From NCBI RefSeq assembly GCF_010550605.1, contig NZ_JAAGNI010000136.1, forward strand, positions 62,001 through 126,000: a DNA stretch of 64,000 bases, given 5' to 3'. The stretch's first letter is position 1. Every line of letters starts with the position of its first letter. This DNA comes from Streptomyces sp. SID9727. Lineage in GTDB: Bacteria > Actinomycetota > Actinomycetes > Streptomycetales > Streptomycetaceae. Under the pieces are notes generated by a model. The model had not been told where the DNA came from, ran no database searches, and saw only the letters and a program-made list of their open reading frames with translations. The translations under genes were made by a program, and so were the position numbers. Positions 4,158-26,587 of this stretch are shown here, piece by piece.

Positions 4158-4165
4158 CGTAACAG

Positions 4166-5122: not shown

Positions 5123-5138
5123 AGGTGGCTCCCTGCTT

Positions 5139-5400: not shown

Positions 5401-5430
5401 CCTGGGCCCGCCGAGAGGCGGATGCACATC

Positions 5431-5473: not shown

Positions 5474-5583
5474 TCCTACGAACACCGAGGAGCCGCTGCG
5501 ATGCAGCATGCCCTGACACACCCGCGCCCCGACCCACCTCCGTCGTCTGGTTCGCACCGCCCTCGTGCTGAACGGCGGCGGCC

Positions 5584-6729: not shown

Positions 6730-6820
6730 CCGACGCTCCTCCCCCTCCTCGCCTCCCCCCTCGCACCGCTTGTTCGCCCCGCCGGGCTTTGGCGCTGCGC
6801 TCCCTCGAACTGGAGTTCCC

Positions 6821-7809: not shown

Positions 7810-7837
7810 CCCTCGCCCCAGAACGGAGGTACGACCC

Positions 7838-9211: not shown

Positions 9212-9284
9212 CCCACATCCCCGGGGGCGGGCCGCACTCCACGGCCTGCCCCCGCCTCTGCCCGATCAACAGGAAGGTTTCGCC

Positions 9285-9383
9285 ATGACGTCCAGAAGAC
9301 CGCCGCGCGCCCCGTCCTCCGCCCGCTCCCACCGTCTGGAACCACCATGTCCGGCAAGGACCAGTCCTCCACGCCCACCGTGA
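9285..9383 (+). CDS. Possible 32-residue Arg/Pro-rich small ORF
   Basis: ATG 9285 follows AGGAAGG, a better ribosome binding site than the one before the overlapping larger gene at 9347. The product is basic (SRRPPR, RSHR) and Pro-rich with no known domain. It may be a real small protein, or simply a way to feed ribosomes to the overlapping gene. Evidence is limited to the binding site. Confidence 0.25.
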   Translation: MTSRRPPRAPSSARSHRLEPPCPARTSPPRPP

Positions 9384-10813
9384 AGTTTCCCCACCGCAGC
9401 AGGCGCGGCGTCCTGCTCGGCCTGACCGTCCCGCAGTTGGCCGTCGCCGGACTCACCGGCCTTCTCCTTCTCACCGTCATCCTCGCCCGAGGCGTGGTCG
9501 GCGCTCTCCAGCTCATACCGCTGTGGGCGGTCATCGCCCTGCTCGTCTTCGTCCGCCACCGAGGCCGCGCATTGGCCGACTGGGCCCCGATCGTCGTCCG
9601 CTACGCGCTGCGCCGGATGCGAGGCCAGCTCGTCTGGCTCACCCGGCCCTCCCGCCGGCCGACCCGCGAGGGGCTGCTGCACCTTCCCGGCACTGCCGCC
9701 AGCCTGCGCGTGGCCACCGCTCCCGACGGTAAGTACGGCGCCGTCCACAACCCGCACACCGGGACGCTGACCGCGGTGGTCAAGGTCTCCTCCCGCGCCT
9801 ACGCCCTGCTCGACCCGGGCACCCAGCAGGCCAACGTCGGCGGCTGGGGACGCGCGCTGGCGGCCCTCGCCCGTACCGGACAGATCGCCCGCATCCAGGT
9901 GATCGAGCGCACCATCCCCGACTCCGGCGACGCGCTGCGCCGCTACTGGGAAGAGCACGGCCGACCCGACACCCCAATGGCCGGCGCGATCTACAACGAG
10001 CTGATCCAGAGCGCCGGCCCCGCAGCCGCCCCGCACGAGGCGTACGTCGCGGTGTCCTTGGACACCAAGGCGGCCCGTCGGCTGATCAACCAGGCCGGTG
10101 GCGGTCTCACCGGTGCCTTCAGTGTCCTCGCCCAGCTCACCTCCACGTTCGACCAGGCGGCGCGGACCGCCGGTCTCACCCCGACGGGCTGGCTCACAGC
10201 CCGCGAGATCGCCGCCGTGGTGCGCACCTCCTACGACCCGAAGGCGCTGGCGACACTCGACCGCTGGTCCACGGCCGGTCGCCCCGAGGCCGAGCCCGCC
10301 GCTGCCGGCCCCGTCGTGGTCGTCGAAAAGGCGGACCACATCGCCACTGACTCCGCCGTGCACGCCACCTACTGGGTGGAGAACTGGCCGCGCACCGAGA
10401 CGTCGGCCGGGTTCCTGCACCAGCTCCTTTTCACCGGCGGCGTCCGGCGCACGCTGTCGCTCTCCTATGAGCCGAAGAACCTCGACGCCGCCCTGCGCGA
10501 CGTGCAGCGCAAGAAGTCCAGCGTGATCGCCGACGCCGCCGAACGGGCCCGGCGCGGTCAGGTCGACTCCGAGGCGGACTCACTCGAGTACCAGGACATC
10601 AAGTCTCGCGAACGCCAGCTCATCGCCGGGCACGCCGATGTCGCCCTGACCGGTCTGCTGACCGTCTCAGCCGACACCGAGGACGAGCTGCGCACCGCCT
10701 GCGCCGTCGTGGAGACCGCCGCTGTCGGCGCCCAGCTCGATCTCCGGCCGCTGACCTGGCAGCAGGCCGAGGCGTTCGCCGCCGCCGCCCTGCCGCTCGC
10801 GCTCGCTGCCTGA
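9347..10813 (+). CDS. SCO6880-family conjugation protein (PrgI-like membrane part plus VirB4 N-terminal-like domain)
   Basis: The 488-residue protein starts at ATG 9347. Two close hydrophobic helices near residues 25-45 and 47-65 (LTVPQLAVAGLTGLLLL, then LIPLWAVIALLVFV) resemble PrgI. The following 400 residues contain no Walker motif. They match the layout of the VirB4/TraU N-terminal domain, with YVAVSLDTKAARR and the ending LTWQQAEAFAAAALPLA. SCO6880-family proteins are a hallmark of actinobacterial transfer clusters. The ATPase half of VirB4 is encoded separately at 11317, so the pair appears to be a split VirB4. Confidence 0.78.
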   Translation: MSGKDQSSTPTVKFPHRSRRGVLLGLTVPQLAVAGLTGLLLLTVILARGVVGALQLIPLWAVIALLVFVRHRGRALADWAPIVVRYALRRMRGQLVWLTRPSRRPTREGLLHLPGTAASLRVATAPDGKYGAVHNPHTGTLTAVVKVSSRAYALLDPGTQQANVGGWGRALAALARTGQIARIQVIERTIPDSGDALRRYWEEHGRPDTPMAGAIYNELIQSAGPAAAPHEAYVAVSLDTKAARRLINQAGGGLTGAFSVLAQLTSTFDQAARTAGLTPTGWLTAREIAAVVRTSYDPKALATLDRWSTAGRPEAEPAAAGPVVVVEKADHIATDSAVHATYWVENWPRTETSAGFLHQLLFTGGVRRTLSLSYEPKNLDAALRDVQRKKSSVIADAAERARRGQVDSEADSLEYQDIKSRERQLIAGHADVALTGLLTVSADTEDELRTACAVVETAAVGAQLDLRPLTWQQAEAFAAAALPLALAA

Positions 10814-10838
10814 CCCTTCCCTTCGAAGGAGCACCCTC

Positions 10839-11291
10839 ATGTCCCGCACCACCAGCCCGACCGCGCAGGACTTCGTGCCCTTCGCCACCGCCGCACTCGA
10901 CTTCCACCGGGCGCTCAACATCCCGGGCAGCCCGCTGGTCACCACCCGGGCCGAACTGGACGCCCTGCACGCCCACCTCGTCTCGCTGTACGGGCTGCTC
11001 GACGCCCACGCCGGTCGCACCGGGCAGCTCGTGGCGATCGAGGGCGACCAGCTCCGTACCGCCCGCACCCGCATCTGGCAGGCCGCCGAGCACCTCCACG
11101 CCGCCTACCACGCGGCACCCCGCCCGGATTCCGGCGAGGTCCCCGAACCGGAGGCGTGCCAGACCGGCCTTCCAGAGGGCGCACCGGAACTGACCATCTG
11201 CCAGCGCCACCAGCGCACCGCTCATCTCGTGCGGCGGCGCACCACCCCGGCCGACCTGCACGCCCCGTTCACCGGCCTCGTCCGCCGCTGA
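10839..11291 (+). CDS. DUF6238-like protein of the transfer operon
   Basis: A 150-residue soluble protein from ATG 10839 behind GAAGGAG. It is helical and His/Ala-rich (LHAHLVSLYGLLDAHAGRTGQL) with Cys near the end (EACQTG, ICQRHQ). It lies between the PrgI/VirB4-N gene and the VirB4 ATPase with about 25-base gaps, so it is very likely cotranscribed. I recall such proteins as DUF6238; the function is unknown. Confidence 0.65.
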   Translation: MSRTTSPTAQDFVPFATAALDFHRALNIPGSPLVTTRAELDALHAHLVSLYGLLDAHAGRTGQLVAIEGDQLRTARTRIWQAAEHLHAAYHAAPRPDSGEVPEPEACQTGLPEGAPELTICQRHQRTAHLVRRRTTPADLHAPFTGLVRR

Positions 11292-11316
11292 TCCATCCCT
11301 CACCTGGAGAAACGTC

Positions 11317-12822
11317 ATGCCCCGTACCCGCGCCAGTGCCTCCCCCCTGTTCGTGCCCCATAAGACGACACGCGCCGAGCAGCGGGCCGCCCGAGCCGAT
11401 TTCACCGAGGCTCGCCGCCAGGCACGCCTCGCCGGAAGCCCGCCCAAGCACCGCGCCGAGCAGACCCTCGACCCGGATCTGCGGCCCACCTATCCGCTCG
11501 CGGGTCGCCCCGGTCCGGCGTCCGCCCGCGGCGGCAAGCTCGACCTGCCCGCCCACCGGATGACCACCGCGACAGCCAGCGGCGCGTACCCGTTCGTGGC
11601 CGAGGGCGGCCTGGGCGCCGAAGGGGTGTTCATCGGCCGCGATGTGCACGCGGAGGCGGCCTTCTGTTTCGATCCGTTCTCGCTCTACAACAGCGGCCGG
11701 ATCGAAGGCTTCACGAACCCCAACGCAGTTCTGGCCGGGATCATCGGCATGGGCAAGTCGGCGCTGGCGAAGTCGATCGCCACCCGGTCGATCGCCCACG
11801 GCTACCGCGTCTACATCCCCTGCGACCCCAAGGGAGAGTGGACCGGCGTCTCGCAGGCCCTCGGCGGCTACAGCATCGCCCTGGGTCCAGGGCTCCCGGG
11901 CCGGTTGAATCCGCTCGATGCCCCGGCCCGCCCCGCCTCCGTCAGCAAGGAGGACTGGTGCACGGAGGTCCGCAAGCGCCGGCTGCTGCTCCTGGCCGGC
12001 CTCGCCCGTACCGTGCTGAAGCGCGATCTGCTGCCGATGGAACACACCGCTCTCGACCTCGCCTTGGACCTGGTCGTCGCCGATGCCATCGGTCAGGGCA
12101 CGGTGCCGCTGCTCGGCGAGATCGCGCACGTACTCGGCTCCCCCGAACGCCTCGACCAGGCTCTCGGCCACCAGGCCGGACACCTCGGCTCGGCCGCCCA
12201 GGATCTCGCCCACGCCCTGCGACGCCTTGTGCACGGCGACTTGAGCGGCATGTTCGACGCCCCGTCCACGGTGTCGTTTGACCCGACCACACCGATGCTG
12301 TCCATCGACCTCTCCCGTCTCGGCGGCTCCGGCGACGACACAGCGCTGGTGCTCGCGATGACGTGTGCGAGCGCGTGGATGGAGTCAGCCCTGTCCGATC
12401 CCGATGGCGGTCGACGCTGGGTGATCTACGACGAGGCGTGGCGGCTGATGCGGCACGTCGGCCTGCTGGAGCGGATGCAGAGCCAATGGAAGCTCTCACG
12501 GGGGCTGGGCATCGCGAACCTGATGGTGATCCACCGGCTGTCGGACCTGCTCTCGGCGGGCGACGCCGGCTCGCGCGGTCGCGTGCTGGCCGAGGGCCTG
12601 CTCGCCGACTGCTCCACCCGCATCATCTACCGCCAGGAGCCGGACCAGCTCGCTGCCGCCGCATCCCTGCTCGGCCTGACCGGTGTCGAGACCCAGGCAG
12701 TGTCCGCCCTGACCAAGGGCCGGGGCCTGTGGAAGGTCGCCGGTCGCAGCTTCATCACCCAGCACATCCTCCACCCGGCCGAGCGGGAGCTGTTCGACAC
12801 CGACGCCCGCATGGCGGCGTAG
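11317..12822 (+). CDS. VirB4/TraC-type conjugation ATPase
   Basis: The 501-residue protein starts at ATG 11317 behind CTGGAGAAACGTC. Walker A is AGIIGMGKSALAKS (near residues 143-156); Walker B is RRWVIYDEAW (near 365-374). The region between has the AVLAMTCASAWME-type helices and VIHRLSDL expected of VirB4/TraC hexameric ATPases. A basic N-terminal 100 residues is linker-like. It should power assembly of the transfer channel at the membrane. It lacks the VirB4 N-terminal domain, which the 9347 gene supplies. Confidence 0.85.
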   Translation: MPRTRASASPLFVPHKTTRAEQRAARADFTEARRQARLAGSPPKHRAEQTLDPDLRPTYPLAGRPGPASARGGKLDLPAHRMTTATASGAYPFVAEGGLGAEGVFIGRDVHAEAAFCFDPFSLYNSGRIEGFTNPNAVLAGIIGMGKSALAKSIATRSIAHGYRVYIPCDPKGEWTGVSQALGGYSIALGPGLPGRLNPLDAPARPASVSKEDWCTEVRKRRLLLLAGLARTVLKRDLLPMEHTALDLALDLVVADAIGQGTVPLLGEIAHVLGSPERLDQALGHQAGHLGSAAQDLAHALRRLVHGDLSGMFDAPSTVSFDPTTPMLSIDLSRLGGSGDDTALVLAMTCASAWMESALSDPDGGRRWVIYDEAWRLMRHVGLLERMQSQWKLSRGLGIANLMVIHRLSDLLSAGDAGSRGRVLAEGLLADCSTRIIYRQEPDQLAAAASLLGLTGVETQAVSALTKGRGLWKVAGRSFITQHILHPAERELFDTDARMAA

Positions 12823-12854
12823 CCCAACGCCCAGCTCAGCAAAAGGGATCGATC

Positions 12855-14397: not shown

Positions 14398-15162
14398 ATG
14401 CCCAGCCACTACGATGTGCTGCCCGACCTGGCCTTCGGCCACCACCCTGTCCACGGCATCGTCGCCGCGAACCCGAAGAACCTCGCGGCCAGCTCCTGGA
14501 TGCTAAGGGGATTCGACTTCCATCCCGTTGCCGACCAGGCGACGTTGTACGCGCTGGCCGACCAAAACCGTGACGGTCACGGCCGTACGAGGCGGGCCAT
14601 CGAGCTGCTGCGCAAGGCCGGCTACCAGGTCGATGTGGACGCCGCGCTTGACCCTGCACTGGCGCCCGACACGGCACAGGTACGCGACCGCGGTCCGCTC
14701 GGTGAACCAGACGTCGCCTTCGCCGATCACCCGCAGCTCGGCATCATCGCAGCCCTCGACGACCGTGTCTCCGCCCTTAGCGCGCTCGCGCTGGTGGAGG
14801 ACGGCTGGCGGCACAACTCGAGCCTGGACGTCTACACGCTCCCCGCGACCACCGATCGCGTCGAGGCGCTGGGGAAAGTCGCCGACGCCACGGTGGCCCT
14901 GCACCGTTCGGGGCTCCAAGTCGCAGTGCAGCCCCGTCTCGCTCAAGAGGTGACGGCCCGGACCCGCTCTGTTGCGACGCCGGCCGCCGATAGGGAGCGC
15001 GGCCATGGTCCCGCTCGCGCGTCTCCGTTGAGCGCCGCCGCGCTCGCCGCCAGCCCAGCCCGCGCCCGTATCCCGGGCAGGGCGCCGGTCCCCGCCTCCG
15101 CCGTCACCACAGCAGCGGTCCGGCCGGTTGACCCCCGCATCGCGTACTCCCGCGACCGCTGA
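14398..15162 (+). CDS. Protein with two tandem copies of an element-specific domain
   Basis: The 254-residue product from ATG 14398 contains two related blocks. The first has HPVHGIVAAN...GFDF...LYALAD...IELLRKAGYQVDVD. The second has HPQLGIIAAL...EDGW...VYTLPA...VALHRSGLQVAVQ. A single related block is in the gene at 49672, beyond the insert (VVAKGATDD...RHRLP...MLRAARYDVTL). A Pro/Ala/Arg-rich tail follows from about residue 185 and ends RDR. The family is unknown to me. The small alpha/beta repeat could be a DNA- or protein-binding fold. Confidence 0.6.
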   Translation: MPSHYDVLPDLAFGHHPVHGIVAANPKNLAASSWMLRGFDFHPVADQATLYALADQNRDGHGRTRRAIELLRKAGYQVDVDAALDPALAPDTAQVRDRGPLGEPDVAFADHPQLGIIAALDDRVSALSALALVEDGWRHNSSLDVYTLPATTDRVEALGKVADATVALHRSGLQVAVQPRLAQEVTARTRSVATPAADRERGHGPARASPLSAAALAASPARARIPGRAPVPASAVTTAAVRPVDPRIAYSRDR

Positions 15163-15187
15163 TCCAACTCTCCAAGAAGGCCCTTGC

Positions 15188-15253
15188 ATGGCCGTTGTTG
15201 GTACAGCACGCTATTCGGAACTGCGGAGTGCCCCACACCAGGGTCGGTGGTAG
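15188..15253 (+). pseudogene. 5' stub of an element gene interrupted by the insert
   Basis: ATG 15188 follows AAGAAGG, 25 bases after the previous stop, exactly where the next operon gene should begin. The frame stops after 21 codons and the next sequence is an unrelated broken gene. I read this as the first codons of an element gene cut by the accessory insert; its C-terminus may be the short frame ending at 49513. Confidence 0.4.
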
Positions 15254-15640
15254 CAGGGACTCAGGCCGGATACCTCGCCGGCGCAGGACTGATGTCGCGT
15301 CCCGACGATGTGTAGGCCATCCGCTTTTCTGTAGGCATGTGCGCTGGCGTCGGCGATAGTTGTAGGCAGTCCGATCCGGTTCGACCGCGTCGAACACGTC
15401 GGCGGACAGGGTGATGTCCGCGGTCGGCAGGAACGCCTCCAGCTGCTCCATGGTGTGCGGGCCGATGATGCCCGAGGTGACACCGGGGTGGTTGATGACG
15501 AAGGCGACGGCCAGTTCGATCAGCGTGTGCCCGGCCTTCTCGGCCAAGACGGCGAGTTGCTCGACGGCGTCGAGTTTGCGCCGGCTGGCATGGGTGCTCA
15601 TGTCGAAGCGGGCCTGGGGGCGGGCGGCCGTAGCCGGGCC
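15254..15640 (-). pseudogene. Aldo/keto reductase C-terminal fragment
   Basis: On the minus strand from about 15630, the stretch RKLDAVEQLAVLAEKAG, then AVAFVINHPGVTSGIIGP and ADITLSADVFDAV, is the C-terminal quarter of an aldo/keto reductase (YhdN/Tas type). The barrel, NADPH site and catalytic Tyr/Lys are missing, and the normal C-terminus changes to unrelated residues after AVEPDRTAYN. It is a remnant at the left junction of the insert, with no expected activity. Confidence 0.75.
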
Positions 15641-16056: not shown

Positions 16057-17193
16057 TCAGTGGACTGCCAGGGAACCCATTGGCTGGTGCCGGGCGCCGC
16101 GGTTGAGGTTCCGGTCGAACCACTGGGTCTGGGACAGGCGCCCGAGCGTGCGGGCGCGGGTTCCGAGCAATGGGCTCGGGCAGTGGCCGAGCACGAAGCC
16201 GTAGTAGTAGGACCAGCGTTGCACATGGTCCGTGATGGCCTTCTGTCGTCGCTCCCATTCGGGCAGCACGGTGGTGATGTCCTTGTTCTGTTCCGCGAGG
16301 GCGGCGAGGGCCATCGCGTTGATGAAGGCGGTGTTCGCGGCCTGTCCAAGGTTGGGCGGCATGGCGTGGGCGGCGTCGCCGAGGACAGCAGCATGGCCGG
16401 CGCTCCAGCGTCGGCAGCGGACGTTGACGAGGCGGTCCCACCGGCCGTCTTCGGCGAAGCGGTGCACGAGGTCGGCGACAGCAGGGAAGTCCGCGGCCCA
16501 TAGATCGCGGTCGACGGGGAGTCGTCCGGCGCGGTCGTCCCCGACCGGGGCGCTGAGGAAGATGTAGTCCTGCTCGTCGGTGCAGGGGTTGAACAGCAGG
16601 CGCCGTGCTCCGTGCCAGTACTCGATGATCGTGTCGTCGGGTTGGTCGTCGGAGCGGTCGATGAGCATGCGGATGCCGGCCTGACTGCCGAAGTCCATCC
16701 ATGCGGTGCAGAAGATCGATTCGCGCAGGCGGGAGTACGCGCCGTCTGCGGCGACGACCAGGTCGGCGCGGCTCGTTTTGCCGTTGGCGTACTCGATTCG
16801 GCCGTCCGCGGACATTCCGGTGACCAGTGAGGACGTGACGATGTCGACGCCGTAGTACTCCGCGCGGGCGATCAGAGCGGCGTAGAGGTCGGCCCGGGGT
16901 GGCAGGAGCATGCGGTCGCCGGGGCCGGTGTAGCGCGACATCAGCGGCTTGCCGCGGTGGTCTGCGATGCGCCATTCGCGGATGGTGCGTGCCCGCTTGG
17001 TGGCCTGGTCGAAGGCCCCGAGGGTCTCGAGCGTTTGCAGGCCGCTTTCCCAGAGCCAGATTCCGGCGCCGTACATGCGCAGTTCGTCGTTGCGCTCGTG
17101 CAGCCGTACGTGCCAGCCGAGTTGGGCGAGCCGGGTGGCCAGGGTGAGACCGGCCAGGCCGGCTCCTGCTATTTCTGCGGTTCGCGGTGCCAT
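16057..17193 (-). CDS. FAD-dependent aromatic-ring monooxygenase, MHPCO-like
   Basis: The 378-residue flavoprotein starts at ATG 17193 with GGAGG seven bases upstream. It has the GAGLAGL dinucleotide motif (residues 9-15), the DG motif VVAADGAYS near 155 and the GD motif VLGDAAHAMPPNLGQ near 285: class A flavin monooxygenase. From memory, the N-terminal stretch (GWHVRLHE, ELRMYGAGIWLW) and overall length closely resemble 2-methyl-3-hydroxypyridine-5-carboxylate oxygenase, which hydroxylates and opens a pyridine ring without a separate dioxygenase. It is the last gene of a leftward catabolic operon. The substrate is unproven; any hydroxylated N-heteroaromatic or phenol is possible. Confidence 0.82.
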   Translation of the reverse strand: MAPRTAEIAGAGLAGLTLATRLAQLGWHVRLHERNDELRMYGAGIWLWESGLQTLETLGAFDQATKRARTIREWRIADHRGKPLMSRYTGPGDRMLLPPRADLYAALIARAEYYGVDIVTSSLVTGMSADGRIEYANGKTSRADLVVAADGAYSRLRESIFCTAWMDFGSQAGIRMLIDRSDDQPDDTIIEYWHGARRLLFNPCTDEQDYIFLSAPVGDDRAGRLPVDRDLWAADFPAVADLVHRFAEDGRWDRLVNVRCRRWSAGHAAVLGDAAHAMPPNLGQAANTAFINAMALAALAEQNKDITTVLPEWERRQKAITDHVQRWSYYYGFVLGHCPSPLLGTRARTLGRLSQTQWFDRNLNRGARHQPMGSLAVH

Positions 17194-17447
17194 CCGTAGA
17201 CCTCCAAGATGCGTTGGAAAGTGCCTGGATCGGGGTGGAGCCGTCAGAGTGCGGTGTTGAGTACGGCACAGGCGCGGGGGCGGCCGTGCCGGGGCGGAGC
17301 TGTCAACGGTTGCGTCTGGTCTGGGACGTTGTGCGGTGTGCTGCGAGGTGTCGAGCGAAGGTTGGGGGGTGGCCGGCCGCCGGGTTGACCCGGCGGCCGG
17401 GCGGTGAAGCGTCGGGGTCCGGCCCCGACCGCTGGAAGTGCGGTGCG

Positions 17448-18875
17448 CTATTCGGCGGCGGCCGCGACCTCGTGCTCGCGCTTTTGCAGGTCCGAGACGA
17501 GGTCCTCGCGCTGCTCGGTGCTCCAGTCGAGTTGGGTGACCGGGCGTTCGCCGCCCTCGAAGGCGCGCTCGTAGGACATGACCTCGAAGCCGTAGTCGTG
17601 CGGCAGGTAGTTGTTGCGCAGGAAACGGGTGCGGATGTCGTCGGGGAAGGTCTGCAGTTCGCCGGCGAGGACGACATGCGTGATCTTGCCCGGCGTGTAG
17701 AGCAGCTTGAGGTTCACGCTGGGGTCGCCGTCGACGACGATCAGGTCGGCGAGCTTGCCGACGGCGACCTCGCCGACCTCGCCCTCCAGGCCGACCATGG
17801 GGGCGTTGTTGAGCGTGCCGGCGCGGATGGCCTCCAGGGGCGTCATCCCGGCGTATTCCACGAGGAGTTCGAGTTCGCGGGCGTGGAACTCGCCGTAGGG
17901 GACGACGGCGAAGCCGCTGTCGGTGCCCATGCCGAACTTGACGCCGGCCGCATGGGCCCGGTGCAGCGAGTCCATGGTCTTCTCGTTCATGCGCTTGGTC
18001 GCCTCGGCGATGCTGGGGCGGATCCCGGACAGGTGGGAGAACTCGACGATGTGGTGCATGAACAGCAGGGTCGGGATCAGCGGGATCTGGGATTGGGCGA
18101 GCTTGTCGATCACCTCGTCCGTCATCATGTTGCCGTGCATGATGTGGTCGAAGCCCGCGTCGACGGCCGCGCCGACCTCGTCCGAGCCCCGGGCGTGGAT
18201 GGTGATGCGCCGGTTGAAGCGGTGTGCGGTGTCGGCGCACAGCTTCATCTCGTCGTTGCTGAATGCCTGGAATTCGCCGAACGGGCTGTCCGCCAGTTTG
18301 ATCAGGTCGACGCCGTTCTTCACCTGGTGGCGGATCTCGGAGACCATCTCGTCCGCGGTGTTGGTCAGCCGTCCGGTGCTGGCCTCCGGGTTGCCGGTGG
18401 TGTCCGGGAACCAGTCGGTGAGGCCGTTGCTCGTGGTCAGGTACCGGCCGGCGGTCGTCATGCGGGGGCCGTGCACGAGCCCCTGCCGGATGCCTTCGCG
18501 CAGGCCGACGCCGATGTAGAAGGAGCCGCCGGGCTGCGAGATGCTGGTCACCCCGGCGTGCAGCACCTTTTCGATGTTGGCCGCGGCGATCAGGGTGCGC
18601 AGCTCGGCCGGGGTGTACATGCTGATTTCTTCTTCGGTGCGCGCCAGCCCGTAGGTCATGTGACAGTGCGCGTCGATCAGTCCGGGCATGACGGTTTTGC
18701 CGCGGGCGTCGATGCGCTGCAGTGTGACACCGCGGGGTATGTCGGTTTCTGCGTCGACGCTGCCGAACTTGACGATCCGGTCGCCTTCGGCGAGGACGTC
18801 ACAGGTGCGCAGAATGGTGGAGCCATCGCCGGTGATGACGTCCCCGCCTTCGATCAACATCCACTGCTTCGCCAT
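17448..18875 (-). CDS. Amidohydrolase, imidazolonepropionase-like
   Basis: The 475-residue protein starts at ATG 18875, with AGGAG upstream. Metal-binding motifs are in order: DAHCHMTYG (near residue 70), the Lys in VDLIKLADS (near 190), His in TIHARGS and HIMHGN (near 225-245), and the Asp in GMGTDSG (near 315). The composite beta-sandwich (residues 1-60 and 380-430, with ADLIVVDGDP) is standard for the family. It should hydrolyse an amide or cyclic amide. In this operon it could act on a ring-opened nitrogen intermediate. Confidence 0.85.
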   Translation of the reverse strand: MAKQWMLIEGGDVITGDGSTILRTCDVLAEGDRIVKFGSVDAETDIPRGVTLQRIDARGKTVMPGLIDAHCHMTYGLARTEEEISMYTPAELRTLIAAANIEKVLHAGVTSISQPGGSFYIGVGLREGIRQGLVHGPRMTTAGRYLTTSNGLTDWFPDTTGNPEASTGRLTNTADEMVSEIRHQVKNGVDLIKLADSPFGEFQAFSNDEMKLCADTAHRFNRRITIHARGSDEVGAAVDAGFDHIMHGNMMTDEVIDKLAQSQIPLIPTLLFMHHIVEFSHLSGIRPSIAEATKRMNEKTMDSLHRAHAAGVKFGMGTDSGFAVVPYGEFHARELELLVEYAGMTPLEAIRAGTLNNAPMVGLEGEVGEVAVGKLADLIVVDGDPSVNLKLLYTPGKITHVVLAGELQTFPDDIRTRFLRNNYLPHDYGFEVMSYERAFEGGERPVTQLDWSTEQREDLVSDLQKREHEVAAAAE

Positions 18876-19058
18876 TGTCCAACTCCTGCTCTTTGCCGTT
18901 TTCCGCCGGGGCCTCCGTGGTGCGGGGGTCTCGGGCTTGCGGTTTTGCTGGTCGCTTCGAACGCACCGGGCGTACAGGTGGGGCGGGTCCGCGGGCGGGC
19001 GGTGCCGACTGCTTGGGGAGAAGCGTGGGCGCCGCCCGCTCGCGGTGGGCCGCTGGGT

Positions 19059-19463
19059 TTAGCCGATGGCGAGTGCTTCGATCTCCACGCTGAACTGCTC
19101 TTCGACGAGGCCGGAGACGAGGACGAGGGTGTTGGGCGGGTATTCGCCGTTGGGGTAGATCTCGGCGAAGACTTCCCGGCGGGCGTCCATGAACTCGGGG
19201 ATGGAGGCGCGGTCGACGATGAAGGTGTTGAAGCGCAGTACGTCGGCGAAGGTAAGGCCGATGCCGTTGAGGACGGTCTGCACGTTGGCGAAGGACTGCT
19301 TGGTCTGGGCGTAGATGCTGCCGTCGCCGGGCAGGGAGCCGTCCGGCAGTCCTCCCAGCTGGCCGGCGATCGAGTGCACGGTTCCGGTCCCGCTCGAGGC
19401 CGGCGAGTAGGCGCCGTACAGCTTGCCGAGGTCGGGGATGTGCGGGGTGAACTTCACGGACAT
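19059..19463 (-). CDS. RidA/YjgF-family protein lacking the catalytic arginine
   Basis: A 134-residue protein from ATG 19463. Family features include SIAGQLGG, NVQTVLNGIGLTFADVLRFN and the C-terminal strand VEIEALA. The position normally holding the Arg of true imine deaminases (PARxxV near residue 105-110) reads YPPNTLVLV here. It therefore belongs to the Rid groups without that Arg, several of which sit in catabolic operons. It may act as an enamine/imine handler or unknown hydrolase. It lies between the hydrolase and amidohydrolase genes on the same strand. Confidence 0.8.
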   Translation of the reverse strand: MSVKFTPHIPDLGKLYGAYSPASSGTGTVHSIAGQLGGLPDGSLPGDGSIYAQTKQSFANVQTVLNGIGLTFADVLRFNTFIVDRASIPEFMDARREVFAEIYPNGEYPPNTLVLVSGLVEEQFSVEIEALAIG

Positions 19464-19542
19464 GGGGTGCTCCCGTTCAGAGGATGGGGTTGTTCGGTGG
19501 GGTGTGGCTGGTCGCTGGCGAGCCTGGGTGGGCTGTGGGCGT

Positions 19543-20406
19543 TCAGAAGGTGCGTTCGCGGCCGTGCCGGGTGGCGGTGTCGGCGAAGATCCAGTTGAGG
19601 GCGTCGATGAAGGCGGCCGGCCGCTCCCAGTAGGGGGCGTGGCCGGTGTCGCGGATCCAGGCCATGGGCAGGTCGGGCAGGCGGTCCATGCTGGCGCGCC
19701 CGGTCTCGGCGGAGACGATGGTGTCCTCGCTGCCCCAGATCATTCCGACGGGTGCCCCCTGGTCGGCGAGGCGCTGGGCGTCGGCTGCGATGAGGTGGTC
19801 GTTGATGGGGCCTTCGAAGTGGCGGCCGATGGCGTCGAAGGAGGCGTCGGCGCCGGCGGAGTTGTTGATCCTAGATTCCTCCAGGGCCCAGGCGTCGGTG
19901 ACCCGCGCGCTGTCGTGGATGAGGGCGGTGAGCTTGCGTCGGCAGTCCTCGACGCCGCGCTGCTTGAGGATGACCTGGCTGATGTTGGCGCCCTCCTTCT
20001 CGTCGAGCGGGACGACGCCGAGGGTTCCCACCATGGCCAGGCGGTGCACCGGGGTGGTGAAGTTGCGTGCCATGTAGCCGCCGATCTGGCCGCCGAGGGA
20101 TGTTCCGATGACGGTCAGCCGCGAGTGGGCGTACTGGGCGGCGACCTTGCTGGCGATGTCGGCGCAGTAGGGGACGGTGAAGGGGAGGGAGCCCTTGTCG
20201 GCGAAGCCGTGGCCGGGCAGGTCCAGTGCGAGGACGCGGTAGCCCTGGGCGGCCAGGGGCTCGAGCAGGGGGGTGAACCGGTCGGCCCGTGAGCCGACGC
20301 CGTGGATGCACAGGACGAGGTCGCTGCCCGATCCTGCGTCCAGGACGCGGGTCTGCACACTTTTGCCGTCCGCCTCGACGTGGACGGGGTATTGCCTGAT
20401 GGTCAC
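19543..20406 (-). CDS. Alpha/beta hydrolase of the catabolic operon
   Basis: The 287-residue protein starts at GTG 20406, overlapping the stop of the FAH gene by four bases (GTGA), so the two are translationally coupled. The oxyanion region is HGVGSRADRF (near residue 35), the nucleophile elbow GTSLGGQ (near 101), the acid is in WGSEDTI (near 228) and the His in GHAPYWERP (near 258). This is the meta-cleavage hydrolase/AAMS-hydrolase type of fold. It likely cleaves a C-C or C-N bond of a ring-opened product. Confidence 0.85.
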   Translation of the reverse strand: MTIRQYPVHVEADGKSVQTRVLDAGSGSDLVLCIHGVGSRADRFTPLLEPLAAQGYRVLALDLPGHGFADKGSLPFTVPYCADIASKVAAQYAHSRLTVIGTSLGGQIGGYMARNFTTPVHRLAMVGTLGVVPLDEKEGANISQVILKQRGVEDCRRKLTALIHDSARVTDAWALEESRINNSAGADASFDAIGRHFEGPINDHLIAADAQRLADQGAPVGMIWGSEDTIVSAETGRASMDRLPDLPMAWIRDTGHAPYWERPAAFIDALNWIFADTATRHGRERTF

Positions 20407-21320
20407 TGGGTGGCTCCTCCTGTGGGGGTGTGTGCCGGGGTGGGGTGGGCGATGGTGTTGCGCAGGGCTCCCAGGCCGCTGGCCTTGATGACGACTTCGT
20501 CGCCGGGCTGGAGGTAGCGCGGGGGGTTGAAACCGATGCCGACGCCCTGGGGGGTACCGGTGGCGATCACGTCGCCCGGCTGCAGGGTGATTCCGGCGGA
20601 GAGGGTCTCGATGATGGCCGGGATGTCGAAGATCAGACGGGAGGTGTCGGAGTCCTGGCGGAGTTCGTCGTTGACGAACGTCTGCAGTGTGATCTTGTCG
20701 GGGTCGACTTCGTCGGCCGTGGTCACCCAGGGGCCCATCGGGCAGAAGGTGTCCAGGGACTTGCCCAGGAACCACTGTTTGTGGTCGCGCTGCATGTCCC
20801 GGGCGGTGACGTCGTTGATGAGGGTGTAGCCCCAGACGTAGTCGAGGGCGTCGGCCCGCGGGATGCGGTAGCCGGGCTTGGAGATCACGATGCCGATCTC
20901 GCCCTCGTAGTCGAGGGCTGAGGTGATGTCCGTGTGCGGGTCGATCTCCTGGCCGGGGCCGATGACGGAATGGGCCGGCTTGGTGAAGATGACGGGTTTG
21001 TCGGGCACCTCGGCGACGCCGGCGGAGTGCGTGGCGTCGAAGCCGCTGCGGGCGAACTCGGCGGCGTGGTCGGCGTAGTTGCGGCCGACGCAGAAGATGT
21101 TGCGGTCCGGCACGAGGGGGGCCAGCGGCTTCCAGCCGGGAGGTCCCGGGCGGGTGGCCAGCCGGGCGAGTTCGTCGCCCGAGAGTCCGACGAGTTCCTG
21201 GAGGCGGGTGTAGGGCCGCTGGTTCTTCTCGTCCCACACGATGCGGGGCTCGGCGCCCTGTTCGTCCAGTACGCACAGAACCGGCCCGTAGTTCTCCGTT
21301 TGTGAGCGCGCGAAGCGCAT
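20403..21320 (-). CDS. Fumarylacetoacetate hydrolase (FAH)-family protein
   Basis: The 305-residue protein starts at ATG 21320 behind GGAGG. After an N-terminal domain ending near residue 75, the FAH fold shows CVGRNYADHAAE, the metal-binding DYEGEIGIVI (ExE near 140), GYTLINDVTARD, and the C-terminal GDVIATGTPQGVG. The family covers hydrolases, hydratases, isomerases and decarboxylases acting on oxo-acids. It is the first gene of the operon and faces the FadR-type regulator across a region with a clear promoter. Confidence 0.88.
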   Translation of the reverse strand: MRFARSQTENYGPVLCVLDEQGAEPRIVWDEKNQRPYTRLQELVGLSGDELARLATRPGPPGWKPLAPLVPDRNIFCVGRNYADHAAEFARSGFDATHSAGVAEVPDKPVIFTKPAHSVIGPGQEIDPHTDITSALDYEGEIGIVISKPGYRIPRADALDYVWGYTLINDVTARDMQRDHKQWFLGKSLDTFCPMGPWVTTADEVDPDKITLQTFVNDELRQDSDTSRLIFDIPAIIETLSAGITLQPGDVIATGTPQGVGIGFNPPRYLQPGDEVVIKASGLGALRNTIAHPTPAHTPTGGATQ

Positions 21321-21340
21321 TGATCCTCCGGTTGCGCGAA

Positions 21341-21380
21341 ACCAATGTGAACCTTCGGCTCACCATAGGTATCGATTGGT
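21341..21380. promoter_or_regulatory. Putative FadR-type operator over the promoter
   Basis: GTGAACC-TTC-GGCTCAC (21347-21363) is an inverted repeat with one mismatch that touches the -10 of the operon promoter. It is nested inside an outer ACCAAT (21341) and ATTGGT (21375) pair. The divergent GntR/FadR regulator next door is the obvious ligand. Confidence 0.45.
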
Positions 21381-21390
21381 TGGCCGTCAA
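21362..21390 (-). promoter_or_regulatory. Sigma-HrdB-type promoter of the catabolic operon
   Basis: On the minus strand, TTGACG (21390-21385) and TATGGT (21367-21362) are separated by exactly 17 bases, a good vegetative promoter about 40 bases before the FAH start codon. Confidence 0.6.
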
Positions 21391-21683
21391 CGGTTGCGCA
21401 GCAGCCCCCTTCCGTCGCCCGGCACGGGGCAGGCCCCCCGCCCGCCGCCCTGAGCGGCAGCCTGCGAGCAGCGGTTTTCCGGCACCCGGCCAGCAGGCGG
21501 GGCACCGTCGCCGGCGACGGTGGAACTGCGGTCGACCGGGTTGCCCATCGACCGGTCGGCGCTGCGGCGGAGGGGAGCGTCGGCGGCTGGAACGCGCCTC
21601 CTGCAGGGGGCGCTCGGGCCGGGATGTCGCGCGCTGGCCTGGGGCTCGCCTGCTAGGCTCCTGGGCTCAGGAGGAGGGGCTGC

Positions 21684-22430
21684 ATGCCGGTCCTCCAGCA
21701 GAAGCAGACGGTGGCGGCCGCGATGGGTCGCATTGGTTGTTCCGGGGAGGTGGCAGGGGTGCAGGCAGTGGGGCCCGCGGCGGTGGTCCGTGCGCACATC
21801 TCGCAGGTGATCAGCGAGGAGAAGCTTGCCCCTGGCGCCCAGCTGCCCACGGAGCGCGACCTCGCCGCGTCGACCGGAGCCAGTCGAGCGGTGGTCCGGT
21901 CTGTGCTGAAGTCCCTGGCGGACGAGGGTGTGGTCGTGCGGCACGTGGGGCGCGGCACCTTCGTCGCGCCCGGCACGGAGGCCGAGCCGGCCGCGCAGGC
22001 GGGCGCGCCCAGTCCGGTCAACATCATGCAGGCGCGTCTGGTGCTCGAGCCGGAGTTCCTGCCCACCGCCGTCATTTCCGCCACGGAGCAGGACCTGCGG
22101 GAGATGCGGCGCTGTCACCAGGAGGGCGAGCAGGCCGCCAGCTCCGCGGAGTTCGAGCACTGGGACACGCTCCTGCACCACAGCTTCGCCGTCGCGACCC
22201 ACAATCCGTTGATCGTGGAGACGAGCCGGCTGCTCATCGACAGCCGGCACCAGCCGGTGTGGGGCCGGCTCAAGCAGCGCACCTACAGTCCCGGCCTGCA
22301 GCAGAACTACTGCAAGGAGCACGAGGCCATCGTCAGGGCGATCGAGGAGCGAGACCCCGACGAGGCCCGGCTGCGCATGCGCGCCCACCTGCAGCACGTC
22401 TCGCGCGAGCTGTTCGGCCACAGCCTGTGA
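21684..22430 (+). CDS. GntR/FadR-family transcriptional regulator
   Basis: The 248-residue protein starts at ATG 21684 with AGGAGGAGGGG upstream. The winged helix-turn-helix (about 32-95) has LPTERDLAASTGASRAVVRSVLKSLADEGVV and the wing GRGTFVAPG. The C-terminal FCD domain contains the expected metal/ligand residues: Asp in HWDTLLHH, His in LHHSFAV, and KEHEAIVRAIEERD. It probably represses the divergent FAH operon and the downstream permease until a carboxylate intermediate binds. Confidence 0.88.
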   Translation: MPVLQQKQTVAAAMGRIGCSGEVAGVQAVGPAAVVRAHISQVISEEKLAPGAQLPTERDLAASTGASRAVVRSVLKSLADEGVVVRHVGRGTFVAPGTEAEPAAQAGAPSPVNIMQARLVLEPEFLPTAVISATEQDLREMRRCHQEGEQAASSAEFEHWDTLLHHSFAVATHNPLIVETSRLLIDSRHQPVWGRLKQRTYSPGLQQNYCKEHEAIVRAIEERDPDEARLRMRAHLQHVSRELFGHSL

Positions 22431-22797
22431 CCGGCCCGCGCCGCTGACGCCCCCACGTCGCTGATTCACCGCCAGATCCTGCGCCCGTGCGCCGCCGCAT
22501 GCCTGCCCGTCGGCGGAAGCGGCGACGCGTCCGGCCCGGCCGCCGGGCCGCGCAAGCAGGGCGGCGGTGCCGCGCGGGCTTTTCCTCACCGGATGGTCGA
22601 CAGGCCCGGGGGGCCGGTGTACCGTCTCGCCCCAACAACCAATGGTCCTCACTGGTCTAAATAGGTTCGCCAGTGGGCGGCCTCCCGGCGGCCCCGCGGC
22701 CGCCGCGGCTCTCGGGCGTACGGCACCCGCCCAGTTCGGCGCTCCTTCCTGCTTCGAGCGCATCCGGTTGAGGTTTTGGAACCCAGCGAGGACACAC
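22431..22797. other. Leader region of the NCS1 permease
   Basis: A 367-base gap. Near 22636-22660 lies AACCAATGGTCCTCACTGGTC, where TGGTC appears twice about one helical turn apart and CCAAT repeats a motif seen at the FAH promoter; TAAATAGG follows. It probably contains the permease promoter and a second regulator site. No ORF is supported. Confidence 0.4.
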
Positions 22798-24417
22798 ATG
22801 AGCAACCCCTCTTTCGAGGTCTCCTTCCACGATGACCCGGCGGTGCTGAAGGCTGCCGCCACCGACGATTTCTCGGGGCATGTGGTGCCCCGCAGCTGGC
22901 GCAGCTCGCGCGGCTCGCTGTCCATGGCGTGGCTGTCGGTGTTCAGCGCCATGTTCTGGCTGGTCTTCCCGCAGACCCTGGCGCTTGCGGTCGGGGTGCG
23001 CGACACCCTGATCGGCATGGTGCTGGCGGCGGTCGTCATCTCCGTCGCGGCCGCCATCGTGGTGCCCTACGCGGCCCGGACCGGGACGAGTCTGGCGATG
23101 TTCAGCCGCCGGCTGATGGGTTACTGGGGTGGCGCGCTGGTCAGCCTGCTGGTGGCGGTGACCGCCCTGTACTACTGCGCGTTCGAGACGTCGATCATCT
23201 CGATCGCGTTCCACGAGTACGTCGGCACGCTGCCGCTGCCGGTCTGGTACTTGCTCGCGGTCGCCGTCGCGGTCGCGCTCGCCTTCGGCGGCGTAAGGGT
23301 GTGGCTGGACAAGTTCAACGCCTGGCTGCTGCCGGTCTACGTCGTCGGCATCGTGGCCGCCGTGGTGTGGGCCGTCGCCGAGTTCGGTTACGACTCCGCC
23401 TGGATCTCCTACATGCCCGCCCGCCCGGTCACCACTGTGGGGCCGGGCTGGGTGCTGTCCTTCAGCGGCTACCTCAGCCAGCTCGTCTTCATCATGTATC
23501 TGTGGGACTTCGCCCGGATGTCCCGTACGCAGCACGCGACGTATCACGCGCGGGTCACCTTCGGCCTGCCGTTCTGGCTGGTCACGTTCGTGCTCAACGG
23601 CCTGGCCGGGCTGTTCCTGGCGCAGACGATCGACATCCGCGGGGCGTTCTCGGAGACCTCGGCGGTCTTCGCGCTGATCTCGCTGATGGGGTTCGCCGGG
23701 GTGCTGCTCGTGTGGGTCACCCAGAGCCGGATCAATACGACCAACTTCTATGTGGCGTCGCTGAATCTGCAGGCGTTCGGCAGCCGTGCGCTGCGCTGGT
23801 TCAGGCCGCGCTATGTCTGGGCGGCGGTCGCGGGCGTGCTGGTCTACGTCCTGATGCTGGCGGACGTGATCGGTTTCCTGCTGACCGCGCTCAACTACCA
23901 GACCGTGTTCGTGGCCGCGTGGGTGGCCATCGCGTGCGTGCACATCGTGCGCTCGCGCACCGCGCCGTCGTCGGCGGCGGCGGATGAGTTCCGGCCCGGC
24001 CGCCTCACGCTGCTCAACCCCGCCGGCCTCACGTCGTGGCTGTGCTCGGCCGCGGTCGGCGTCCTGCTGCTGGCCTTCGCCGGAGACTTCGGTGCCACCT
24101 GGGCGATCATCATCGTCCTCCCCCTCGCCGCCGCCCTGTACGCGCTGCTGGATCGGTGGCAGCCGGTGGGCAGGGCCGTCCTGGTCCGCCCGGGCGACCT
24201 GCGTGAGGAGGTCGAGGACGCGTGGGCGGCCCGCATCAAGTGCGCACGCTGCGCGCAGAGTTACGTCGCCTACGAGATGGACCGCGACCCCGCCAATGAG
24301 GACCGTGCCATCTGCTCGCTGTGCGGTGACACGGCGCCCGGCTTCTACCGGGCCGCCGCGCGCGAGGCGCGCGAGGCGCAGGCCGGGCCGGAGCGCAGCC
24401 CGGAGGCGGCGGCTTAG
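22798..24417 (+). CDS. NCS1-family permease with a C-terminal zinc-ribbon-like tail
   Basis: The 539-residue protein starts at ATG 22798 with GCGAGGA upstream. Twelve hydrophobic segments run from about residue 40 to 460, with family marks such as FSGYLSQLVFIMYLWDFARM and ALNYQTVFVAAWV. NCS1 proteins take up nucleobases, hydantoins and related heterocycles in symport. After the last helix there is a polar extension with CARC (near 482) and CSLC (near 507), two CxxC pairs like a zinc ribbon. I do not know this tail as standard for the family. The permease likely imports the substrate of the adjacent catabolic genes. Confidence 0.85.
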   Translation: MSNPSFEVSFHDDPAVLKAAATDDFSGHVVPRSWRSSRGSLSMAWLSVFSAMFWLVFPQTLALAVGVRDTLIGMVLAAVVISVAAAIVVPYAARTGTSLAMFSRRLMGYWGGALVSLLVAVTALYYCAFETSIISIAFHEYVGTLPLPVWYLLAVAVAVALAFGGVRVWLDKFNAWLLPVYVVGIVAAVVWAVAEFGYDSAWISYMPARPVTTVGPGWVLSFSGYLSQLVFIMYLWDFARMSRTQHATYHARVTFGLPFWLVTFVLNGLAGLFLAQTIDIRGAFSETSAVFALISLMGFAGVLLVWVTQSRINTTNFYVASLNLQAFGSRALRWFRPRYVWAAVAGVLVYVLMLADVIGFLLTALNYQTVFVAAWVAIACVHIVRSRTAPSSAAADEFRPGRLTLLNPAGLTSWLCSAAVGVLLLAFAGDFGATWAIIIVLPLAAALYALLDRWQPVGRAVLVRPGDLREEVEDAWAARIKCARCAQSYVAYEMDRDPANEDRAICSLCGDTAPGFYRAAAREAREAQAGPERSPEAAA

Positions 24418-24496: not shown

Positions 24497-25744
24497 TCAG
24501 TGCGGGCTGTGCTCGCGGGCGCGGGAGGCGTCGGCGGCCAGATCCTGCTCGGGTGTGATCTCGTGGCCGGGGCGGGGGCGGCGCGTGCGGGTGAGCGCGG
24601 CCACCAGTGCGCTCGAGGCGAGCGTGAGCGCGGCAATGGCGAGGATGGCCGGAGCCAGGGCGGTGGTGCCGTGGGCGCCGATGACGGCCCCCAGAACGAC
24701 GGGGGCCAGGGCCATGCCGATCATGGAGGCGGCGATGACGTAGGCGAACCGGTTGCCGTGGGCGTGGCCGGTGGTCGCCATCCAGGTCAGGCCGTTGGGG
24801 AAGATGGGGCCGATGAAGAAGCCGGTCAGCAGGTAGGCCCAGGCGGTCATCGAGCCGTGCAGGGCGAGGGCGGACGCGCCGGTCATGCCGATGCAGCTGG
24901 CCACCACGAGGGGGGCCAGGCCGACGCGCCGGTGCAGGGCGGCCGCGACGAACCGGCCGGCGACCATGGCCAGCCAGAAGCCGGACGTGGCCAGCGCGGC
25001 GCCGGATGCGGTGAAGCCTTGGTCGGCCAGGACGGTGGGTTCCCAGTTGCCGATTCCGGACTGGGCGCCGAAGTGCGTGACGTACAGGGCGAGGAAGCCG
25101 AAGGCGACGGCCACGCCGAGGCCCCGGCGGCGCGGGCTGTGGTGGGTGTGCTGCCCGGCCTTGGGGACCAGCTCGTGCGGGCCCGGCGAGGGAGCCACGC
25201 CCTTGAGGGTGGCCGCGCCGATCAGGCCCATCACGGCGATCACGGCGAAGACGATGCGGTACTGGGCGGCCCCGACCGCGGCGATCAGCGCGGGGGCGGC
25301 GGCTGTGCCCAGGCCGAAGCAGGCGTGCGCGATGTTGACCAGGGCCGGGCCGCGGGCGCCGGTGCCGACGATGAGCAGTTGCGTGATCAGGACGTCGCAG
25401 CCGCCCAGTCCCACACCGGTGATGACGGCGCCCGCCAGGATCAGGGGCCAGGTGGGTGCGGCGGCGACGATCACCGCGCCGGCGGCGACCAGGCCCATCG
25501 AGGCGGCCAGGGCGGTCCGGTTGCCGCGGCGGCGCATGAGGGGCTGGCTGAGCAGGATGCCGACGACCGCGCCGATGGACTGCATGGCCAGCCCGGCGCC
25601 GGCGGCGGTGTCGTTGATGCCGTGCTGGTCCTTGAATGCGGGGATGGACGGCCCGTAGGCCGCCGTCAGGGCGCCGATCGCGGTCATTGCGATGAGGCAC
25701 CCCGCGATGGCGTTGCGCTTGAACAGTGACGTCGTGGCTACCAC
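24497..25744 (-). CDS. MFS transporter
   Basis: A 415-residue protein from ATG 25744 with GGAGG upstream. Twelve hydrophobic segments, a central basic loop (HHSPRRRG), LMRRRGNRTAL after helix 2 (motif A-like) and FIGPIFPNGLTWMA in the C-terminal half indicate the major facilitator superfamily. Its substrate is unknown. It is transcribed away from the GntR gene at 25886. A role as exporter or metabolite carrier for the neighbouring pathway is possible. Confidence 0.82.
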   Translation of the reverse strand: MVATTSLFKRNAIAGCLIAMTAIGALTAAYGPSIPAFKDQHGINDTAAGAGLAMQSIGAVVGILLSQPLMRRRGNRTALAASMGLVAAGAVIVAAAPTWPLILAGAVITGVGLGGCDVLITQLLIVGTGARGPALVNIAHACFGLGTAAAPALIAAVGAAQYRIVFAVIAVMGLIGAATLKGVAPSPGPHELVPKAGQHTHHSPRRRGLGVAVAFGFLALYVTHFGAQSGIGNWEPTVLADQGFTASGAALATSGFWLAMVAGRFVAAALHRRVGLAPLVVASCIGMTGASALALHGSMTAWAYLLTGFFIGPIFPNGLTWMATTGHAHGNRFAYVIAASMIGMALAPVVLGAVIGAHGTTALAPAILAIAALTLASSALVAALTRTRRPRPGHEITPEQDLAADASRAREHSPH

Positions 25745-25772
25745 GGAACCTCCTCCTAAGAGCTAAAGAGTA

Positions 25773-25822
25773 AAAGAGCAACCCTATTGTGCAGCGCGAG
25801 TAGACTAAAGGGCAACCCAATC
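25773..25822. promoter_or_regulatory. Paired direct repeats between MFS and GntR genes
   Basis: AAAGAGCAACCCTATT (25773-25788) and AAAGGGCAACCCAATC (25807-25822) are near-identical direct repeats 34 bases apart in the divergent gap. They are likely operator sites for the adjacent GntR regulator. Confidence 0.5.
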
Positions 25823-25885
25823 CGGTGGGGAACGACAGATCCGCCTCACAACGACACGCGGATGCGACGCGAAGGACAGACGCAC

Positions 25886-26587
25886 ATGACGCACGCCAGC
25901 GAGGCGCCCAAGCGCTCGGCCCTGGTCGGCCAGCTGATCGACATCTTGCAGCGCAACATCCAGGCCGGCCGGTGGCCGGTGGGCGCGAAACTGCCCACGG
26001 AGGCGGAGCTGTCCACCGAGTACGGCGTCAGCAGGATCACCTTCCGGCAGGCCGTCCAGGCGCTGGTGCACGTCGGGGTGCTGGAGACCGTCCAGGGCAG
26101 CGGCACCTTCGTGCGCGCCACCACCGAACTCGACGCCGTGCTGACCCGCTACGTCGGCGGCGAGGACCTGACCACGGTGCTGGAGGTCCGGCTGGCCATC
26201 GAGAGCGAGGCCACCGCACTGGCGGCCGTGCGAGCCGCACCCGGCGACATCGCCGTGCTGGAGGAGATCATCGCGGCCTCGCGGGCGGCGCTGGCCCGCC
26301 AGGACGGCGAGGAGCTGACCCAGCTGTCCACCCGGTTCCACCGCACGATCGTGCAGGCGGCCGGCAACACCATCCTGGCCCACTTTTACCAGGCCATCCA
26401 CGACGGGGCGGAGCGCTCGGTACGCGAGACGACCGCGCCGGAGGACTTCGGCGCCTTCGTCGACCAGCACGCGGCCATCGTCGAGGCCATCCAGGAACGC
26501 AACAGCGGGCGCGCCCAGCAACTGGCCCGCGCCCACCTCGCTCCCCTGGTCTTGGCAGCGCCGACACAGCCCGGCCGCCCGCAGTGA
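25886..26587 (+). CDS. GntR/FadR-family transcriptional regulator
   Basis: The 233-residue protein starts at ATG 25886 behind GAAGGA. The N-terminal wHTH has LPTEAELSTEYGVSRITFRQAVQALVHVGVLE and the wing GSGTFVRA. The FCD domain follows (EVRLAIESEATALAAVRA, RFHRTIVQAAGN, DQHAAIVEAIQERN), with the Asp/His pattern of metal-assisted ligand binding. It probably controls itself and the divergent MFS gene through the paired repeats between them. Confidence 0.87.
   Translation: MTHASEAPKRSALVGQLIDILQRNIQAGRWPVGAKLPTEAELSTEYGVSRITFRQAVQALVHVGVLETVQGSGTFVRATTELDAVLTRYVGGEDLTTVLEVRLAIESEATALAAVRAAPGDIAVLEEIIAASRAALARQDGEELTQLSTRFHRTIVQAAGNTILAHFYQAIHDGAERSVRETTAPEDFGAFVDQHAAIVEAIQERNSGRAQQLARAHLAPLVLAAPTQPGRPQ

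Follow-up and report, generated by a model that had tools for sequence, protein, structure and literature searches.

The 64,000-nucleotide window analysed here (contig NZ_JAAGNI010000136.1 of Streptomyces sp. SID9727, positions 62,001 to 126,000) carries between its positions 16057 and 24417 a gene cluster which a first-pass annotation, made from the letters of the DNA, had read as a compact catabolic set for a pyridine, a pyrimidine or some similar heteroaromatic compound. Every gene named in that annotation was recovered by family matches. The minus strand encodes, in the order of transcription, a fumarylacetoacetate hydrolase (FAH)-family protein (20403-21320, 305 amino acids [aa]; FAA_hydrolase, 243 bits), an alpha/beta hydrolase (19543-20406, 287 aa) whose gene overlaps that of FAH by 4 bp, a Rid-family protein (19059-19463, 134 aa), an amidohydrolase-superfamily protein (17448-18875, 475 aa; Amidohydro_1, 127 bits) and a flavin adenine dinucleotide (FAD)-dependent group A monooxygenase (16057-17193, 378 aa; FAD_binding_3, 68 bits). 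On the plus strand there are a GntR/FadR-type regulator with FCD and GntR domains (21684-22430, 248 aa), divergent from the operon, and an NCS1-type permease (22798-24417, 539 aa). The permease call of the first-pass annotation stands on a weak family match (24.0 bits against a Pfam cut-off of 23.5); the protein is 42-46% identical to plasmid homologues, as judged from the best 20 of 27 matches listed, some of them annotated as cytosine or allantoin permease. Its Cys-rich C-terminal tail (24241-24324) shows by eye a CxxC...CxxC arrangement resembling a zinc ribbon, and no Pfam match falls there.

This gene set corresponds to the kpi locus of Arthrobacter sp. IN13, which serves 4-hydroxypyridine catabolism and whose description (PMC7356986) was the only paper on such a gene set among the open-licence matches listed. 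The pathway type thus has a precedent, and the earlier suggestion that it had perhaps not been described before was mistaken. In that paper, which is the source for all kpi proteins mentioned here, KpiA (374 aa, against 378 in the window) converts 4-hydroxypyridine to 3,4-dihydroxypyridine, a product established by nuclear magnetic resonance; KpiC (475 aa in both, Amidohydrolase_1) gives, in extracts, a product 32 Da heavier, with two oxygen atoms added, from which ring opening was deduced; the KpiC and KpiB (295 aa alpha/beta hydrolase, against 287) extracts together give a product fitting 3-formylpyruvate; KpiD (FAH, 288 aa against 305) is proposed to release formate and pyruvate; KpiP (533 aa against 539) is NCS1-like with a proposed transport role, and KpiR1 (224 aa against 248) is a FadR regulator. 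Six families are therefore common to both loci, and horizontal acquisition is suspected for both. The traits by which we recognise the kpi type, namely a FAD_binding_3 monooxygenase of about 374 aa, a 475-aa Amidohydro_1 protein, an alpha/beta hydrolase with FAH, and NCS1 and FadR genes, all occur in the window, and among the loci read that carry a monooxygenase of the same clade (the window clade, see below) the NCS1 transporter is common only to window and kpi. The gene set and the kpi match support the first-pass view of a compact N-heteroaromatic catabolic set with an NCS1 uptake gene; more specifically, the cluster is probably an operon of the kpi type that breaks down 4-hydroxypyridine or a closely related 4-pyridone.

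We infer each step of the Streptomyces pathway. The KpiP-like permease would import the pyridone, which the KpiA-like monooxygenase, a predicted 4-pyridone 3-hydroxylase, would hydroxylate ortho to the ring oxygen to yield 3,4-dihydroxypyridine. The KpiC-like amidohydrolase-fold protein, a predicted ring-cleaving dioxygenase, would then act as an O2-dependent extradiol enzyme producing 3-(N-formyl)-formiminopyruvate, from which the KpiB-like alpha/beta hydrolase, a putative N-deformylase, would remove formate. The Rid protein would speed the enamine hydrolysis to 3-formylpyruvate and ammonia, an assignment of our own for a step that the kpi authors left open (PMC7356986), and the KpiD-like FAH protein is predicted to serve as 3-formylpyruvate hydrolase, with the KpiR1-like regulator presumably controlling the set. 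The scheme finds a role for all five enzyme genes, which speaks for it. A second known route for 3,4-dihydroxypyridine, that of PydA/PydB in mimosine degradation by Rhizobium TAL1145 (as cited in PMC7356986), shares its intermediate and hydrolase logic with our proposal but differs in that PydA is a LigB-family dioxygenase, none of which was recognised in the window cluster. The homarine pathway was also considered and dropped, homarine itself being absent from the literature matches listed.

The flanks of the monooxygenase gene were compared in nine other genomes with a window-clade enzyme, two of them strains of one species. All nine have an amidohydrolase homologue in these flanks, that of G640 being partial, and for the alpha/beta hydrolase, Rid and FAH genes this holds in seven; because of this recurrence, the grouping of the cluster genes is not due to chance. 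One of the two genomes without linked FAH (G590) has an FAH homologue (60%) on another contig. Where the window has its NCS1 gene, seven of the nine relatives have Rbs-type ABC transport genes, as seen by eye with one substrate-binding protein found by family scan; by eye, no such genes were recognised in the 17-kb contig of G590, and G586 was ambiguous. The hydroxylase, too, is replaceable: a Rhodococcus rhodochrous BX2 plasmid has, together with an unrelated HpaB-type monooxygenase, counterparts of the amidohydrolase (52.5%) as well as of the alpha/beta hydrolase, Rid and FAH proteins (36-39%), and a second set in Geodermatophilus ruber unites amidohydrolase, alpha/beta hydrolase and FAH with HpaB, a flavin reductase being nearby and no Rid gene recognised. 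Since the hydroxylase is exchanged while the amidohydrolase stays constant, the latter is indicated as the ring opener. More tentatively, and as an idea that we entertain without yet favouring it, amidohydrolase, alpha/beta hydrolase, Rid and FAH may form a mobile ring-cleavage module of Actinomycetota and Proteobacteria, in which an amidohydrolase-fold oxygenase, overlooked by annotation, would replace the classical extradiol dioxygenases, Rid would be a dedicated enamine hydrolase, and both the hydroxylase (group A FAD or HpaB-type, perhaps also Rieske) and the transporter (NCS1 or ABC) would be exchangeable.

The monooxygenase had been likened by the first-pass annotation to MHPCO, the enzyme of vitamin B6 breakdown in Mesorhizobium loti, and at the superfamily level this likeness stood. 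Among solved proteins MHPCO scores 204 bits (35.6% identity, 36% when rounded), ahead of tropone monooxygenase (75), HpxO (71.5) and 6-hydroxynicotinate 3-monooxygenase (53), and it is the first fold neighbour of the predicted model (pLDDT 77). In a 35-row tree, however, the window enzyme falls outside the MHPCO clade: its own clade of 11 rows (100/100) also contains genes from Geodermatophilus, Modestobacter, Mycobacteriaceae and Proteobacteria, whereas MHPCO forms a separate clade (100/100) with genes, 59-60% identical, from four other genomes of the window's genus. The nearest group outside the window clade consists of three plasmid genes (support 95/94, and 90/89, not starred, in a second tree of 30 of the 35 rows from which five out-group rows were dropped for their long branches). 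Approximately unbiased (AU) tests on the 30-row set, with groups named after the first tree had been seen, did not reject a sister relation of window clade and MHPCO (p 0.062) and rejected a union of the window clade with Moq/AqdB (p 0.0002). Moq and AqdB1 here denote the monooxygenases encoded next to MeqE on pAL1 and next to AqdC1 in R. erythropolis BG43, presumably 4-oxoquinaldine and 2-heptyl-4-quinolone 3-monooxygenases. These systems resemble our proposal in that related enzymes, presumably for 4-oxo N-heteroaromatics, stand beside a separate ring-cleaving enzyme; they differ in that this enzyme is annotated as a dioxygenase (meqE, aqdC1) and that their monooxygenases form another clade.

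Pocket residues give a mixed picture. The alignment retains the MHPCO positions Arg211 and Tyr223 in the window enzyme (R198, Y210), Moq/AqdB having Phe at the former, while the Tyr82 position is W74 and the Tyr54 position is likewise Trp; we take Arg211 and Tyr54 to be pocket residues of MHPCO. Tyr223 and Tyr82 are assigned to substrate deprotonation (PMC6180312), so that of this pair one is kept and the other replaced. Membership of the MHPCO group was rejected on the tree, on W74 and on the lack of a partner resembling E-2AMS hydrolase, the enzyme after MHPCO. The first-pass annotation had compared the alpha/beta hydrolase with that enzyme, a parallel which did not hold up: E-2AMS hydrolase reaches 30.6 bits over residues 17-123 only, against 70.2 bits for the best match, 2-hydroxy-6-oxononadienedioate hydrolase. 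Given the MHPCO likeness combined with a separate clade and mixed pocket residues, superfamily membership alone cannot decide between ring opening and hydroxylation. On the MHPCO side of the tree, a close MHPCO relative in G183, a genome of the window's genus (L044, about 9444-12048), adjoins ABC transport genes and a gene that by eye looks like a decarboxylase of the class II aldolase type, a locus possibly for vitamin B6 breakdown.

The first-pass statement that the cluster has no dioxygenase holds in so far as no classical ring-cleaving dioxygenase family was recognised in it; the amidohydrolase-fold protein is itself a KpiC-like candidate for ring cleavage. Because the amidohydrolase-fold KpiC is reported to cleave the ring with O2, the apparent absence probably reflects a disguised dioxygenase. 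Several observations weigh against this interpretation and against the kpi-type assignment as a whole. In PMC7356986 no purified KpiC product was obtained and KpiD could not be brought to activity, and ring cleavage by KpiC rests on this one paper with its cell-free extracts. The assignment of our cluster rests on gene set, lengths and context, likeness between the Streptomyces and Arthrobacter loci being judged from families and lengths. The kpi description lists no Rid gene, so that this gene is extra in the window, and it includes an AraC regulator (KpiR2), which has no adjacent counterpart here; the AraC-type gene seen (32211-32996) lies 7.8 kb beyond the permease. We did not treat this last trait as defining, since regulators vary. 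The amidohydrolase has an intact six-residue metal site in the alignment (H70, H72, K193, H227, H247 and D319); HxH, Lys, His, His and Asp are the metal ligands of the amidohydrolase superfamily. Its best solved relatives are mostly named hydrolases, so with these ligands in place its sequence gives no sign of a dioxygenase. Enamidase, in PMC7356986 the nearest confirmed-function relative of KpiC (28%), matches the window protein weakly and partially (E 4.2e-5, residues 10-78), and KpiC could therefore be of another subfamily. Proteobacterial homologues of the amidohydrolase are only 31-37% identical. In the Rid protein Asn111 aligns with the Arg of PARS in HI0719 and 3vcz, so the RidA arginine is absent, which we take to be the substrate-carboxylate ligand Arg105. 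Both AU outcomes count on the same side, as does the lack, as annotated, of a separate ring-cleaving dioxygenase beside the monooxygenase relatives in BX2, A. crystallopoietes, Prescottella, Terrarubrum (a VOC protein only) and Novosphingobium (a Rieske pair). In favour of the kpi-type reading, such an enzyme does stand beside some other non-MHPCO relatives: besides MeqE and AqdC1, Variovorax SRS16 has dioxygenases, and LigB genes were found in G625 (Pfam) and G681 (by eye).

It may also be asked whether the amidohydrolase is a plain lactam or N-acyl hydrolase and the ring is cleaved by an unlinked enzyme. The intact metal site and the hydrolase relatives speak for this, and the genome holds one LigB-family gene, the genome-wide search having taken in neither intradiol nor VOC-type extradiol families; this gene, however, lies on contig C65, unlinked to the cluster, and ring cleavage is reported in PMC7356986 for KpiC, the counterpart by family and length. 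We regard this explanation as improbable, and give about the same low weight to the one-step opening put forward by the first-pass annotation, in which the monooxygenase would open a 3-hydroxypyridine ring as MHPCO does and the other enzymes would merely process the ring-opened amide. That MHPCO leads the solved relatives by a wide margin in sequence and fold, with the Arg211 and Tyr223 positions kept and the sister relation unrejected, is in its favour; moreover, one member of the nearest outside group, from the BX2 plasmid of R. rhodochrous, has in its vicinity a gene annotated as succinate-semialdehyde dehydrogenase, succinic semialdehyde being an end product of the MHPCO route (PMC3538738). 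The separate clade, the Trp at the Tyr82 position, the missing E-2AMS hydrolase-like partner and the replacement of the hydroxylase by an HpaB type with the remaining genes kept all tell against it. So do KpiA of the matching gene set, a plain 3-hydroxylase (PMC7356986), and KnmB1, a pyridine hydroxylase with 45% identity to MHPCO (PMC9838390).

A milder departure, which overlaps with the kpi-type reading, keeps the same logic for another substrate, a substituted 4-pyridone or another ortho-hydroxylatable N-heteroaromatic. Rieske oxygenases occur in the flanks of four of the nine relatives (G271, G588, G589, G640), as alpha/beta pairs in both genomes from Mycobacteriaceae (G271 and G588), as an AndAc-like pair in Pusillimonas sp. 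T2, and as a VanA-type and another Rieske protein in G640; entry substrates may therefore vary among relatives. The window-clade pocket also differs from that of the nearest outside group at W46/W74. On the other hand, no Rieske alpha subunit (PF00848) was found in the window's own genome, and the sharing of the NCS1 gene, among the loci read, by the window and the 4-hydroxypyridine cluster points back to the kpi substrate. A different substrate is possible but rather unlikely, our preferred reading being the kpi-type operon proposed above. Pusillimonas sp. T2 was dropped as a clue to nicotine, the literature listing the strain in a nicotine context and showing no link to the cluster.

Further observations concern the individual enzymes. 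The metal-site Asp (D319 in the window) is Glu in 4 of 12 aligned amidohydrolases (L013, 2811-4169; L018, 4489-5847; L023, 9720-11126; L024, 9167-10558). The predicted amidohydrolase model has a mean pLDDT of 64 and is low over much of residues 71-167 and 413-475, so only its fold neighbours were used and not its metal site. In the nearest outside group the amidohydrolase (548 aa) has its best match in Amidohydro_3 and was given no weight as evidence on KpiC. Amidohydrolase matches at 37% identity in G1447 and G1466 were likewise set aside, no other kpi-like genes accompanying them in the stretches read. In an Acetobacteraceae metagenome-assembled genome (L024, 9167-12326) an amidohydrolase relative lies beside an AndAc-like Rieske alpha subunit, with a beta subunit seen by eye; the locus (including 19006-19833) also holds, on inspection by eye, genes for NitT/ThiY-like transport and for a ThiM-like kinase. 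The PPNT motif of the Rid protein is retained in five of seven Rid rows and not in that of the R. rhodochrous plasmid. A Rid protein paired with an alpha/beta hydrolase is also found in the Rut pyrimidine pathway, a candidate discarded here, the RutC and RutD models scoring far below cut-off (21.6 and 22 bits).

As to control signals, a promoter-like TTGACG-17-TATGGT (21362-21390, minus strand) precedes the FAH start by about 40 nt; one was found against a mean of 0.3 in shuffles, a count that does not in itself indicate function. GGAGG stands shortly before the ATG of both the FAH and the monooxygenase gene. Upstream of these two genes, exact minus-strand copies of CGCAACCGTTGACNGC occur at 21383-21398 and 17299-17314 respectively, the only exact ones within the window, other occurrences having three mismatches. 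The pair, spotted by eye afterwards, is perhaps a shared promoter or operator; a shared 13-base word arises in 5 of 200 shuffles and in 1 of 196 random pairs.

Homologues are rare. At 1e-40, the sample of 199 genomes from the genus contains 7 with a match, of which the window's own alone falls in the window clade, and at 1e-75 in 2 of 396 genomes of the phylum sample; around three relatives the counts are 4/250, 1/299 and 3/301 genomes, centres included. Within this 7.66-Mb assembly its setting resembles a plasmid: window positions 3161-12828 match S. angustmyceticus plasmid p1 in two pieces (84%) and positions 50485-62518 in three (81%), these two blocks matching 20 and 13 records respectively, all from Streptomyces. 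The blocks carry conjugation-type genes (SCO6880 family, ATP-binding protein, NlpC/P60 peptidase, TraG/TraD coupling protein, DnaB-like) and enclose about 37.7 kb in the window, including the cluster, against about 8.8 kb in p1. Given such a variable block between shared conjugation genes, the cluster looks like cargo carried on a conjugative element, perhaps a plasmid. In contrast to kpi, its genes have no recognised transposase among them. Just to the left lies an aldo-keto reductase fragment (15104-15601, C-terminal part only), and to the right the gene of an MFS transporter, divergent from that of a GntR regulator of the FCD type (24497-26587); the cargo block also holds a short-chain dehydrogenase/reductase (41334-42116) and a flavin amine oxidase (45926-47086).

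If the proposed role of the amidohydrolase is true, genes annotated as imidazolonepropionase-like or Xaa-Pro-dipeptidase-like amidohydrolases would include ring-cleaving oxygenases, and aromatic-degradation searches restricted to the classical dioxygenases would overlook amidohydrolase-fold ring openers. The swap of the hydroxylase offers an easy way to tell which enzyme is the ring opener, and in the Rid protein there is a possible catalyst for the enamine hydrolysis, the step which the kpi work left unresolved.

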